DNA from: an uncultured Methanomicrobiales archaeon
GTDB taxonomy: Archaea; Halobacteriota; Methanomicrobia; Methanomicrobiales; Methanospirillaceae
Length of the DNA stretch: 64,000 nucleotides
Assembly: GCA_903832665.1 (NCBI GenBank)
Contig: CAILCG010000022.1
Location: 1 to 64,000 of the forward strand
Reading direction: 5' to 3'
The notes beneath the pieces were generated by a model. That model searched no databases, was not told the DNA's origin, and saw only the letters and a program-made list of their open reading frames with translations. Below are positions 28,074 to 35,665 of this stretch, one piece after another (position 1 is the stretch's first letter; each line of letters begins with the position of its first letter). A program made the position numbers and the translations under genes.

Positions 28074-28967
28074 ATGCTCATCCTCATGCTGGTCGCGTGC
28101 GGATGTACCGCTCCTCCTCCCCAGAAGGAACTGACCGGTTCAGGCAACGGACCAATGGGCATCCCACAGGGAAGCGGGCAATATGTATTCACGGACCTGC
28201 TCGGAAACGCGGATCGCCCGATCACGGTCTACACGTATCGCCCGGCCTCCTGGAACACCTTGGGTCCGGTACTGATGGTGATGCCCGGGGCGGGTCGCGA
28301 CGGGCGATCCCCCCGGGATACCTGGATACGCTATGCTGAACAGTATTCCAGTCTCGTGGCGGTACCGGAATTTTCCCTGGCGAACTATCCCGGGGATCTC
28401 TGGTACAATGCCGGCAATACCTACGATGACAACAACTGGAACCCGAAGGCGAACTGGACCTATACGGCAGTTGAGCATCTCTTCGATGATCTCCGGAACA
28501 AGAGTGGCGCCACCCGGAATACCTACCTGCTCTTTGGGCACAGTGCGGGAGGCCAGTTTGTCCACCGGATGGCAACCGTGCTGCCGGAAGCCCGGTACAG
28601 CCGTGCCGTAGCAGCGAATGCAGGGTTCTACCTCTTGCCGGTCTCTACCATCGAGTATCCGTTCGGTCTCAAAGGCTCTCCCCTGTATGAGAACGAGCTT
28701 CCAAGCGTTTTTGCACGGAAACTCATCATCATGTCGGGCGGCAGCGATACGGATCCCAATGCCAGCGGCCTTGCAAATTTCCCCGAAGCAGAAGCCCAGG
28801 GGAGCACCCGGTTTGAGCGGGCCCGGTTCTATTTCACGACTGCCCAGGCAGAAGCAGAGCGCCGCCATATCCCGCTGAACTGGGAATATCATGTAGTGCC
28901 GGGTATCGGACACGATGAAGCGGGGATGGCCGGAGCTTCAGCAGCATTGCTCTTCAATGAAACGTGA
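28074..28967 (+). CDS. Secreted lipoprotein alpha/beta-hydrolase
   Basis: A protein of 297 residues. MLILMLVACGC carries a short hydrophobic stretch and a lipobox-like L-V-A-C, so it is probably anchored outside the membrane through Cys9. The hydrolase fold has PVLMVMPGAGRDGRSP (oxyanion strand), LLFGHSAGGQFVHR with the nucleophile Ser in G-H-S-A-G, MSGGSDTDPN for the acid and VPGIGHDEAG with the His. It resembles secreted esterases of the PHB-depolymerase type; the substrate is unknown. The start context is weak, and the leader is unusually short, so the true start could lie a few codons upstream. Confidence 0.75.
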   Translation: MLILMLVACGCTAPPPQKELTGSGNGPMGIPQGSGQYVFTDLLGNADRPITVYTYRPASWNTLGPVLMVMPGAGRDGRSPRDTWIRYAEQYSSLVAVPEFSLANYPGDLWYNAGNTYDDNNWNPKANWTYTAVEHLFDDLRNKSGATRNTYLLFGHSAGGQFVHRMATVLPEARYSRAVAANAGFYLLPVSTIEYPFGLKGSPLYENELPSVFARKLIIMSGGSDTDPNASGLANFPEAEAQGSTRFERARFYFTTAQAEAERRHIPLNWEYHVVPGIGHDEAGMAGASAALLFNET

Positions 28968-30664: not shown

Positions 30665-30924
30665 TAATAGGTGAGGGGGGATCTATAAAATCCCGCTTGT
30701 CATTGGAAAAATATCGCCCCTTTTTTCCGAACTCCCCTTCTTTATATAGCCCTGGATGAAACAGGCATACAACAACAAGACGATCCCCAGGGTAAAGCTA
30801 GGGAAAGGACAGGCTCGTTTTGAGGGCCTTCCTTGTCCCGATACTCCTCTGGTTGTCAGAATCAACGATTATGCCGCCGGAGCAGCAGGCACGATCATAC
30901 AAATCCGGTACACGGAGGAACATC

Positions 30925-31269
30925 ATGGAAATTCACCAGAGCATATCAGAGGGAGTGACGATTGTGGCACTGATAGGGAGGCTGGATACGACCAGTACCT
31001 CTGAGTTCGAAGAGCACAGCAGAGCACTGCCGCCGGGCCCGATCATCCTTGACCTGAGCCGGCTGGAATATATCAGCAGCTCCGGTCTCCGGGTATTTCT
31101 CCAGCTGAAACGGGATTGCGCGAAGAAAAACATCCCCATCGTCTTTGCCGGCAGCTGGGGGAGTGTTGCCAAGGTCATACGGGTGAGCGGGTTTGAGAAT
31201 ATCTTCTCGCGGTACCCCTTGGTGGCAGACGCCCTTCTGGGGGTTGCTGCGGAAGGTGCCGGATCATAA
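30925..31269 (+). CDS. STAS-domain anti-sigma-antagonist-like protein
   Basis: A protein of 114 residues. EGVTIVALIGRLDTTSTSEF and IILDLSRLEYISSSGLRVFL are the SpoIIAA-type STAS signatures; the S in Y-I-S-S-S-G is the phosphorylatable position. Archaea lack sigma factors, so such proteins probably act in phosphorylation-switch partner systems with PP2C phosphatases or HATPase kinases, none adjacent here. The start at 30925 follows GGAGG closely; an in-frame ATG at 30820 lacks a site and adds unmatched residues. Confidence 0.85.
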   Translation: MEIHQSISEGVTIVALIGRLDTTSTSEFEEHSRALPPGPIILDLSRLEYISSSGLRVFLQLKRDCAKKNIPIVFAGSWGSVAKVIRVSGFENIFSRYPLVADALLGVAAEGAGS

Positions 31270-31568: not shown

Positions 31569-33299
31569 ATGACGCAGGTTTCACCGATCGGAAAAGAGAG
31601 TACGGGTCCGATAGCACTACGTGAAGGGAGCAGAAAAAAAATAACCGGTGGGGCGATAGGAGACTGCGTCCATGGTACGGGTGTCTATGAATTTTTGAGA
31701 ACCGCAGATCGTTTTGGTTACCAGACCTTCTTCCTGGGAGCCGCAATCGAAACCCCAGCGTTTGTCCGGGCGATTGAAGAGAACAAGGCAGAGATCATCT
31801 GTGTCAGTTATCGCAATAACCCTGACAGCCTCGCAGGGATCCTGGAGAAATTCTTCCAGGAATTGTCTGAGAAGAACCTGATCCGGGGAAAGGTGTTTTA
31901 TTTCGGCGGAACTCCCTCATGTATAGCGGTTGCAAAAAAATTCGGCCGGTTCGGTCATTTTTTCCAGGGCAGGGAAAATTCTTCAGTGATCCGCGAAACC
32001 CTGTTTGTCAGGGATCCGGCGATATCCCCGGTTCGCAGGGAATACGAACGACTTCCGCTCCATGCTGAAGCACTGACCCCCACTGACATGAAGTGGATCA
32101 TGTCGGTGGATTGGTACGTCCCGATGATACGTTCTCATTTCGGGCTCCCGTCGCTCGATGATACCATCGATGGCGTGAAAAAAATCGCTGAATCCGGAAC
32201 CGTGGATCTCATCTCCATCACACCCGACCAGAATGCTCAGGAAAATTTTTTCGAACCCGAGAAGATGGATTCCGTCCGGGACGGGTTCGGGGGAGTCCCC
32301 GTAAGGACCGAAGAAGATCTGCGCAGGATCGGGACAGCGGCCCAATGCGGAAATTTTCCCCTCCTGAAGATGTCTGCGGGAACAGAGGACCTGATGAAAT
32401 GGGCATCTATGGGAATAAGCACTGTCAATAATGCATGGGGAGCGGTCCCGCTCTTCTGGCAGAGCGAGCTTGATGGCCGATCCACGCGACCGCTTGCTGC
32501 GGCGATCCGGGAGAACCGGGAAGTAGTGCGGTGGTACGCAAAGCAGGGAATACCGGTCTCGGTGAATGATTCGTACCAGTGGAGCCTGTGGGACTCATCC
32601 GATGTGATTTCCGTTGCTGCGTCGTACCTTGCAGCATACAATGCAAAGAAACTGGGAGTAAAGACGTACATTGCCCCGTTCGTGTTCCACACGCCCCGGC
32701 AGCTCTCGGCAAAGATGGATCTTGCAAAAATGCTGGCGAACCTGGAGATGATAACGAGACTTGAGGATAATTCGTTTGTCTGCCTCAGGGAAGTCGGGGT
32801 CACCCATTCCTCCCCCGATCAGGATATCGCCAAAGGAGAACTTGCCGCTTCTGTGCTCCTGGCTCTCGCACTCAAACCCCAGATTATCACCGTTGTCGGA
32901 TCCAGCGTAACGGACCATGCAGCAACTGCTGAAGAGGTGATCGCGAGTTGCAAGATCGTCCGGAGTGTAGTACAGAACACCGGCCGGGATTTCCCGGCTC
33001 TTGTTCCGGATAAAGACGTGATCGCCCGCAAGAATCACCTGGTCAAAGAAGCTGCCTATCTTCTCGACAAGATCGCCGGGGCGTTTCAGGCAGAATCCGC
33101 TGACCCCCTTTCCGATCCCCGGATCCTTGCAAAGATCGTGACCTGCGGCTACTTTGATGCACCCCAGTTAAAGAACAGTCCGGTTGCGCGGGGGGTTCTT
33201 CGCACGATGCCGGTGAACGGCGGTATTGATGCGGTGGATGCACGGGGAAAGCCCCTGTTGGAGCAGGAAAGGATCGCAGATCTTCTCACTTCCTCTTGA
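31569..33299 (+). CDS. B12-binding-domain protein with mutase-like C-terminal barrel
   Basis: A protein of 576 residues. N-terminal about 30-160 resembles a cobalamin-binding Rossmann domain: GGAIGDCVHGTGVYEFLRTA, then GYQTFFLGAAI and AEIICVSYRNNPDSL. The canonical D-x-H-x-x-G is spaced D-C-V-H-G-T-G here, as in an uncharacterised cobalamin-binding group. Residues about 200-480 look like an alpha/beta barrel similar in layout to glutamate mutase or methylaspartate mutase E chains (MSAGTEDLMKWASMGISTVN, SVNDSYQWSLWDSSDV). The C-terminal 80 residues contain KIVTCGYFDAPQLKNS. No operon partner or reactivase is adjacent. The reaction is unknown; B12-dependent isomerisation is inference, and the odd motif could mean weak or no cobalamin binding. 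Confidence 0.6.
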   Translation: MTQVSPIGKESTGPIALREGSRKKITGGAIGDCVHGTGVYEFLRTADRFGYQTFFLGAAIETPAFVRAIEENKAEIICVSYRNNPDSLAGILEKFFQELSEKNLIRGKVFYFGGTPSCIAVAKKFGRFGHFFQGRENSSVIRETLFVRDPAISPVRREYERLPLHAEALTPTDMKWIMSVDWYVPMIRSHFGLPSLDDTIDGVKKIAESGTVDLISITPDQNAQENFFEPEKMDSVRDGFGGVPVRTEEDLRRIGTAAQCGNFPLLKMSAGTEDLMKWASMGISTVNNAWGAVPLFWQSELDGRSTRPLAAAIRENREVVRWYAKQGIPVSVNDSYQWSLWDSSDVISVAASYLAAYNAKKLGVKTYIAPFVFHTPRQLSAKMDLAKMLANLEMITRLEDNSFVCLREVGVTHSSPDQDIAKGELAASVLLALALKPQIITVVGSSVTDHAATAEEVIASCKIVRSVVQNTGRDFPALVPDKDVIARKNHLVKEAAYLLDKIAGAFQAESADPLSDPRILAKIVTCGYFDAPQLKNSPVARGVLRTMPVNGGIDAVDARGKPLLEQERIADLLTSS

Positions 33300-35242: not shown

Positions 35243-35665
35243 ATGGATCTCGATGCAGACCTCAGAACCCTTTCTCTCTCCCTCGATGCCGACTATTTTG
35301 GTGTGGCTGATCTTGCCCCTGCCCACGATGCTATTCTGGCTCAGGGAGGGGAACGGGTTGCCCGGTACCCGAGAGCAGTTACCATCGGTATTGTGTTGCA
35401 GGACAGCCTCGTGGATCTCCTGCCGGATGACGACAAGGCTGGAGCGATTCTCTACAAACACAACAGTTACGATGTAGTCAACCTTGCCCTTGACCAGCTA
35501 GCGCTCCGGGTTGCGAATACCCTCCGGAGGGCCGGTTTCGATGCAGCGGCCTGCGACCGATATTTCAAAGAAATGGAACGGGAAAAGGGCGTTGCTGTCT
35601 GCGGTCTTTGCCTGTACATCTGCCCGCATGGAAGGAATGCCGGAAAAGGAATGACCCGCAGGTAA
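35243..35665 (+). pseudogene. Epoxyqueuosine-reductase-like iron-sulfur protein with an in-frame internal deletion
   Basis: A protein of 140 residues. The first 105 (LSLDADYFGVADLAPAHDAI, RYPRAVTIGIVLQDSLVDLL, YDVVNLALDQLALRVANTL) match the N-terminus of QueG-like reductases of about 260 residues. At about residue 108 it jumps to CDRYFKEMEREKGVAVCGLC and LYICPHGRN, which is how these proteins end. The central part, with the first ferredoxin C-x-x-C-x-x-C-P motif, is missing, so neither of the two clusters can be complete. The junction is near 35550-35560. The reading frame is kept, suggesting a clean deletion of very roughly 120-130 codons. Probably inactive. Confidence 0.7.

Follow-up and report, generated by a model that had tools for sequence, protein, structure and literature searches.

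The protein P0001, encoded in a contig of an uncultured Methanomicrobiales archaeon, is probably a horizontally gained, divergent and solitary copy of a single-chain AdoCbl mutase family of the glutamate mutase type that carries a CxHxxG motif and is paired with an opine dehydrogenase; it would bind a cobamide and would no longer run the reaction of the family. The gene is rare in its host group and common elsewhere. In the open literature (subscription journals and preprints were outside the scope of the search) no account was found of the family, of its pairing with the opine dehydrogenase, or of the CxHxxG cobalamin motif, and the family is apparently unnamed and undescribed. Carbon-skeleton B12 mutases are few, and each marks a distinct pathway. 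P0001 points to what may be an unexplored B12-dependent pathway.

The features of P0001 are listed in Table 1 by their positions in the window, that is, the whole stretch of 64,000 nucleotides that was analysed. The gene is present in a single copy in its own genome (assembly 98.8% complete, 28 contigs). Its GC content is 0.541 versus 0.538 for the window, and its GC3 of 0.60 is slightly lower than that of eight neighbouring genes (0.63–0.78). A STAS-domain gene (30820–31269, plus strand; PF01740, E 1.7e-15) lies 300 bases 5' of P0001 on the same strand. Two further open frames of the plus strand, 28074–28967 and 35243–35665, have no Pfam match at E 0.001. By eye, the genes surrounding P0001 look archaeal and the remaining MutE carriers of the phylum haloarchaeal, which would fit a methanogen-like host.

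Table 1. P0001 and its parts, with positions in the window and residue numbers of the protein.
Feature	Position	Strand	Basis
P0001, open reading frame of 576 aa; B12 domain and mutase-like barrel on a single chain	31569..33299	+	open frame
B12-binding Rossmann domain, N-terminal, residues 22–135	31632..31973	+	PF02310 in aligned members; fold matches
Cobalamin motif G-D-C-V-H-G-T-G, residues 31–38; CxHxxG, with Cys33 in the Asp place of DxHxxG	31659..31682	+	alignment of relatives
TIM-type barrel, residues 181–478, nearest to glutamate mutase MutE	32109..33002	+	AlphaFold2; 1cb7_B, Z 32.0; PF06368
Stretch with nine changed pocket-mouth residues, residues 267–447: R267K, Y269S, E331S, H336Y, R341W, Q370P, M372V, H441T, E447V	32367..32909	+	alignment; AlphaFold2 secondary structure
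C-terminal helical part, residues 479–576	33003..33296	+	AlphaFold2

The structure of P0001 was modelled by AlphaFold2 using 18 aligned relatives (mean pLDDT 82.6, pTM 0.73); the model built without relatives reached a pLDDT of only 33.4 and was unusable. The best solved match to the model is MutE, the barrel subunit of glutamate mutase (Foldseek E 9e-16): residues 167–571 superimpose on 1cb7_B with a VIA Z-score of 32.0 and an rmsd of 3.1 over 370 aligned residues at 15% identity. It is followed by lysine 5,6- and ornithine 4,5-aminomutase (Z 27–30) and by methylmalonyl-CoA mutases (Z about 17–22). The barrels of IspG, ThiC and dihydropteroate synthase, also present in the list of fold matches with Z 15–18, were read as generic. 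The first 150 or so residues match B12 domains and corrinoid proteins (4jgi_B, Z 16.2; 1y80, Z 15.8). The model, the Foldseek search and the Z-score matches thus agree with the original prediction of a B12 domain and a mutase-like barrel on one chain, and the predicted structure has both the Rossmann domain and the barrel, the lack of either of which would have spoken against that prediction.

P0001 alone matches the B12-binding family PF02310 weakly, with E 0.0014 and 18.9 bits, under the cut-off of 32.1 bits, and its matches to MutE (Pfam, 10.5 bits) and MutS (NCBIfam, 15.3 bits) are also below threshold, whereas PF02310 is found in all 18 aligned members (best E 9e-12) and PF06368 in nine of the 18 (best E 2.4e-9). 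The profile of the family aligned by hhalign with nine haloarchaeal MutE sequences gave a weak match (E 0.14; 0.34–0.98 for five column shuffles), for which reason the residue equivalences between the family and MutE given below are tentative; the match to MCM was no better (E 0.073).

The cobalamin motif was originally read as a variant of DxHxxG with an extra residue. This reading was rejected, as alignments to 4jgi, to 1be1 and within the family keep the His and Gly of DxHxxG in register as His35 and Gly38 and set Cys33 at the Asp place. His35 and Gly38 are found in 71 of 71 relatives each. At position 33, 65 of 69 relatives have Cys and the remaining four Asp, a count that omits the 10 of 79 rows having no letter there, mostly of the Bacteroidales variant. 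The preceding residue, D32 in P0001, is variable (N 34, D 20, S 6, E 5, H 3, Q 1; n = 69). The family motif, as judged from the alignment, is thus C-x-H-x-x-G, in which the Asp is replaced and nothing is inserted, and this is the norm of the family.

The Asp of DxHxxG proteins forms a bond with the cobalt-binding His, as described in PMC3727330, where the residues named for CobDH (4jgi) are Asp100, His102 and Ser147. When the family profile is aligned with 4jgi, Cys33 corresponds to Asp100 and S80 to Ser147; of 76 relatives, 61 have Ser and the other 15 Gly at position 80. P0001 keeps C33, H35, G38, S80, G113 and G114, and so the strict DxHxxG is absent from it, while the base-contacting Ser and the GG loop of the base-off/His-on class are present. 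The near-invariant residues kept within residues 22–135 are H35, G38 and R82 (C33 is 94% conserved), with no conserved lysine. The exchange of Cys for Asp, with Asp kept in four of 69 members, provides a natural experiment on the influence that the residue behind the cobalt-binding His has on cobalt–carbon chemistry.

Relatives were sought with a single degenerate DNA pattern for the peptide N-N-x-W-G-x-x-P-x-F-W. It yielded 33 loci, of which 18 encode relatives (tblastn E 0.0 to 6e-66, identity 37–54%) from Syntrophomonadaceae, Bacteroidales, Chlorobiota, Omnitrophota, Firmicutes, Methanofastidiosum and Asgard archaea. The 18-row family profile, in which P0001 is itself a row, matches P0001 at 2.8e-237. 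At E 1e-20 this profile matched 86 of 398 genomes of the Firmicutes phylum that includes genome G386; 8 of 393 Bacteroidales genomes were matched at the same threshold, six of them over the barrel only, and 4 of 35 genomes in the phylum of G387 at E 1e-10. Closer to the host the family is scarce. Only the genome of P0001 itself was matched among 39 genomes of its genus. Searches with the single sequence matched 2 of 100 genomes sampled from its family, the second being a short match to the B12 domain, and 5 of 294 genomes of its phylum including its own, the other four being partial. Two of the partial matches were set aside: L003 is a fusion of corrinoid and methyltransferase-like parts, and at L005 the opposite strand carries a PLP-type enzyme (by eye). 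No close relatives were found by exact-peptide patterns in genome contigs or viral contigs, and no relatives by tblastn in plasmids or phages or by a scan of viral sequences with a designed alignment. Calling P0001 an orphan, as was done originally, is right for its own genome only; the family as a whole is common (the 86 Firmicutes genomes) and has a conserved partner. One Syntrophomonadaceae relative (L084, 5010–6818, minus strand) has an in-frame TAA in the metagenome-assembled genome, which is either a true break or an assembly error.

This partner is an opine dehydrogenase of the octopine dehydrogenase family, which adjoins the mutase gene in 73 of 79 loci, on the same strand and within 400 bases. 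The 79 loci represent 77 genomes (G395 and G933 were counted twice). They include all eight Bacteroidales genomes and 55 of the 86 matching Firmicutes genomes, picked down the hit list and hence non-random. Pairs were counted by six-frame search, since simple ORF calling lost genes in GC-rich loci. The nearest dehydrogenase is located 5' of the mutase in 64 loci and 3' in 10, and in several pairs the stop of one gene overlaps the start of the other. Five neighbouring dehydrogenases were tested against PF02317, and all matched (E 2e-43 to 1e-48). Trees with 18 rows each, built for the mutases and the dehydrogenases of the first pairs, have their main groups in common.

Six loci are unpaired. 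In L088 the two genes are 466 bases apart with a run of N between them, L098 and L176 are at contig ends, and L135, L156 and L173 have sequence on both sides and no dehydrogenase in the stretch, yet keep the pocket residues. The last three loci show that the partner is not strictly required and that loss of the partner alone does not entail loss of the pocket. In the genome of P0001 there is no PF02317 match at E 0.01, and tblastn with partner, ligase or channel seeds found no match in the window. The absence of partner genes noted originally thus holds for the window, and for the opine dehydrogenase in the genome, but is not a property of the family.

The closest solved relative of the dehydrogenase is 1bg6, N-(1-D-carboxylethyl)-L-norvaline dehydrogenase (E 1e-111, median identity 40%). 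His202 and Asp297 are kept in 74 of 74 adjoining dehydrogenases. Position 111 is Arg in all 74, position 198 is Gly in 70 and Ala in four, and position 35 is Arg in 66. PMC10787698 reports that mODHs from hot springs, whose identity to 1bg6 is near 40%, favour L-aspartate and L-glutamate in combination with pyruvate, that the pair A111R/N198G switches the preference of 1bg6 from Phe to Asp, and that Arg at 35 is tied to NADPH. Because the partner dehydrogenases carry this acidic-preference Arg/Gly pair, they are predicted to make an acidic opine that carries three carboxylates. Such an anion would be well matched by the many cationic residues conserved in the mutase barrel (R188, H190, R267, R304, H336, R341 and H441).

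In the mutase fold, the C-terminal ends of the barrel strands form the pocket that faces the cofactor. It is here that P0001 departs from its family. We defined as near-invariant the 52 columns at least 97% identical in relatives. P0001 is altered at ten of these, L83N and the nine listed in Table 1, whereas other rows, each left out in turn, have at most four changes (L180) with a median of zero. Nine of the ten changes map to strands 3, 5, 6 and 8 of the barrel in the AlphaFold2 model, at their C-terminal ends or just past them. Of the residues lost, H441, E331, H336, R341 and Y269 are each invariant in 77 or 78 rows of relatives. Family residue E447 (77 of 77 rows) aligns with Glu330 of glutamate mutase and is V447 in P0001; PMC4413051 and PMC3958899 describe Glu330 as contacting the adenosyl ribose. 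Besides, position 298 is Y in 69 and F in 9 of 78 relatives and Q in P0001, and one Arg of the family is deleted. The other 42 of the 52 residues are retained, including R188, H190, Q221, Q224, W290, D302 and R304, as well as both near-invariant residues of the C-terminal helical part.

The tree places P0001 inside a bacterial clade at 100/100, on its longest end branch (0.81), and the gene may well be an old horizontal gain. P0001 is similar to the family over both domains and lacks the adjoining dehydrogenase and the pocket residues. It would keep the fold and the presumed cobalt-binding His, while the Glu expected at the adenosyl ribose and other pocket residues are gone together with any dehydrogenase in the genome; because the fold and the His are kept and the pocket Glu and the partner are missing, cobamide binding is likely and the family reaction is likely lost. 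With its pocket lost and its cofactor site kept, P0001 is a natural contrast to the rest of the family.

Most likely, P0001 is now either a remodelled enzyme or a B12-binding protein that is not an enzyme; the odds of these two and of an early pseudogene are similar. As a working mutase with a new substrate, P0001 would have a rebuilt pocket, would still make the adenosyl radical and would rearrange a different compound. Such a protein would account for the intact frame, for the 42 retained near-invariant residues and for the host-like GC content; it would have to work with Val in the Glu330 position and without five residues that are invariant in the relatives, and we regard it as a tentative possibility.

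It is likewise a tentative possibility that P0001 is a cobamide-binding protein without catalysis, serving as a sensor, store or carrier. The kept B12 site (C33, H35, G38, S80 and the GG loop) next to a barrel that has lost pocket residues is what one would expect of it, and the STAS-domain gene upstream on the same strand may also be in its favour. However, no DNA-binding, signalling or other output domain was matched in P0001, and no Rfam family, including the cobalamin riboswitch, in the window. The E-H signature of light-sensor cobalamin proteins, as given in PMC11796333, is absent, His35 being preceded by V34. CarH-type photoreceptors combine this signature with an output domain and differ from P0001 in both respects. 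The cobalamin sensor suggested in the original prediction is weakened by these observations, although the loss of the pocket leaves room for a non-catalytic role with B12.

An early pseudogene of a gene acquired without its partner seems slightly less probable still: there is no stop or frameshift in 576 codons at about 50% identity to the nearest kin, and most invariant residues are retained. The absent partner, the presence in one of 39 genomes of the genus, the longest end branch and the lost pocket residues are nevertheless all consistent with it.

P0001 and its family were compared with known B12 enzymes. Glutamate mutase (MutE/MutS, methylaspartate mutase; 1cb7, 6h9e) has the same barrel fold and B12 domain as the predicted model. 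The family shares with it the equivalent of Glu330, which P0001 lacks, and the link to MutL in loci L180, L181 and L192. It differs in that a single chain begins with the B12 domain, that Cys stands at the Asp place and that the partner is an opine dehydrogenase. Arg66, Arg100 and Arg149 of glutamate mutase, which we take to be the arginines binding the substrate carboxylates, align with H190, Q224 and S269 of P0001 and are not kept. A simple fusion of MutS and MutE into an otherwise ordinary glutamate mutase would agree with the nearest fold of P0001, MutE (Z 32.0), and with its MutS-like B12 domain. This was rejected on the substrate residues, and the low identity over the fold match and a TIGR01503 score of 11.4 against a cut-off of 390 likewise make it highly improbable.

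Lysine 5,6- and D-ornithine 4,5-aminomutase (8t0v, 3kow) share the barrel, and in 3kow the barrel and the B12 domain are on one chain, as in P0001; the B12 domain of 3kow is C-terminal (residues 602–722) versus N-terminal in P0001. The PLP/B12 aminomutases (LAM, OAM) have the PLP lysine in the B12 domain, whereas the B12 domain of the family has no conserved lysine. Methylmalonyl-CoA mutases have the same AdoCbl barrel fold with a weaker match, and no acyl-CoA context was seen for the family. By sequence the partner belongs with the opine dehydrogenase of the Arthrobacter 1C type (1bg6) and with the hot-spring mODHs, whose Arg/Gly pair it has; the sections of PMC10787698 that were consulted mention no B12 mutase gene beside such enzymes.

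The family is most likely an AdoCbl mutase in the metabolism of acidic opines, with the substrate read from the partner alone and the tested mODHs possibly being other proteins. The dehydrogenase would join an acidic L-amino acid and pyruvate, or would split the product. By means of a 5'-deoxyadenosyl radical, the mutase would rearrange the carbon skeleton of either that amino acid or the opine with its three carboxylates. An amide would then be formed by an ATP-dependent ligase in some genomes; other genomes have a transporter and MutL, which suggest breakdown. More specifically, one may tentatively propose a new class of AdoCbl mutases acting on a three-carboxylate opine from the partner dehydrogenase, e.g., N-(1-carboxyethyl)-aspartate or -glutamate. 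The Cys that replaces Asp would tune the cofactor, and P0001 would be an isolated archaeal side branch in which the cofactor site has survived and the chemistry has been lost. In an alternative version, the imine of the 2-oxo acid would play the part of PLP in aminomutases. If true, opine metabolism would for the first time be seen to include a B12-dependent step, one present in roughly a fifth of the sampled Firmicutes genomes. Since the mutase and the acidic-type opine dehydrogenase form a unit of two genes, the reaction is testable with two purified proteins. The new isomerase proposed originally fits the family as a working hypothesis.

The neighbourhoods of relatives were inspected for other genes. 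MutL is the reactivase of glutamate mutase. In L180 it is fused to the C-terminus of the mutase (PF13941, E 7.5e-82), in L181 a fusion 74% identical to that of L180 was identified by BLAST, and in L192 MutL is a separate gene (E 7e-167) beside the dehydrogenase–mutase pair. This link is the best evidence for radical chemistry in the family. The fusions, 1214–1233 aa long (L180, 5809–9507, minus strand; L181, 1739–5380, plus strand), are located beside a more distant opine dehydrogenase, and both adjoin genes of an oligopeptide-type ABC transporter (by eye) and a Peptidase_C26-like gene; GntR-like regulators accompany all three MutL loci (by eye). The L180 and L181 loci look like opine uptake and breakdown.

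Asparagine-synthetase-like genes were found in 12 loci, in all 12 less than 3 kb from the mutase, most stretches being 10–20 kb long. D-Ala-D-Ala-ligase-like genes are within the same distance in eight loci (the match in L140 is weak and may be a housekeeping Ddl); another ATP-grasp gene occurs in four loci and a CofE-like ligase in one. The loci with MutL and transporters would be breakdown operons, and those with ligases, synthesis operons. In the asparagine-synthetase class the N-terminal Cys is catalytic; in L090–L092 the asparagine-synthetase-like protein begins with AGIAG and lacks this Cys, and a lactam- or solute-forming cluster is possible there. In these loci of the Omnitrophota group (L090, L091, L092), and also in L089, a gene for an MscS-like membrane protein follows the dehydrogenase. 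An Rfam search of ten relative loci gave a tRNA only and no cobalamin riboswitch.

Several Bacteroidales loci (L174, 7386–9254, plus strand, and the similar L175 and L177–L179) encode a variant of about 620 aa with the opine dehydrogenase adjoining. In L174 the motif is the canonical D-A-H-T-L-G, and D-Ala-D-Ala-ligase-like and alanine-racemase-like genes follow. In another Bacteroidales locus (L085, 10473–12703 and flanks) the pair and an ATP-grasp gene lie among polysaccharide-like genes, with glycosyltransferases and a flippase (by eye). Sulfotransferase-like genes in L086 (10457–12515) and an APS-kinase-like gene in L087 (7850–8470) were seen by eye beside the pair.
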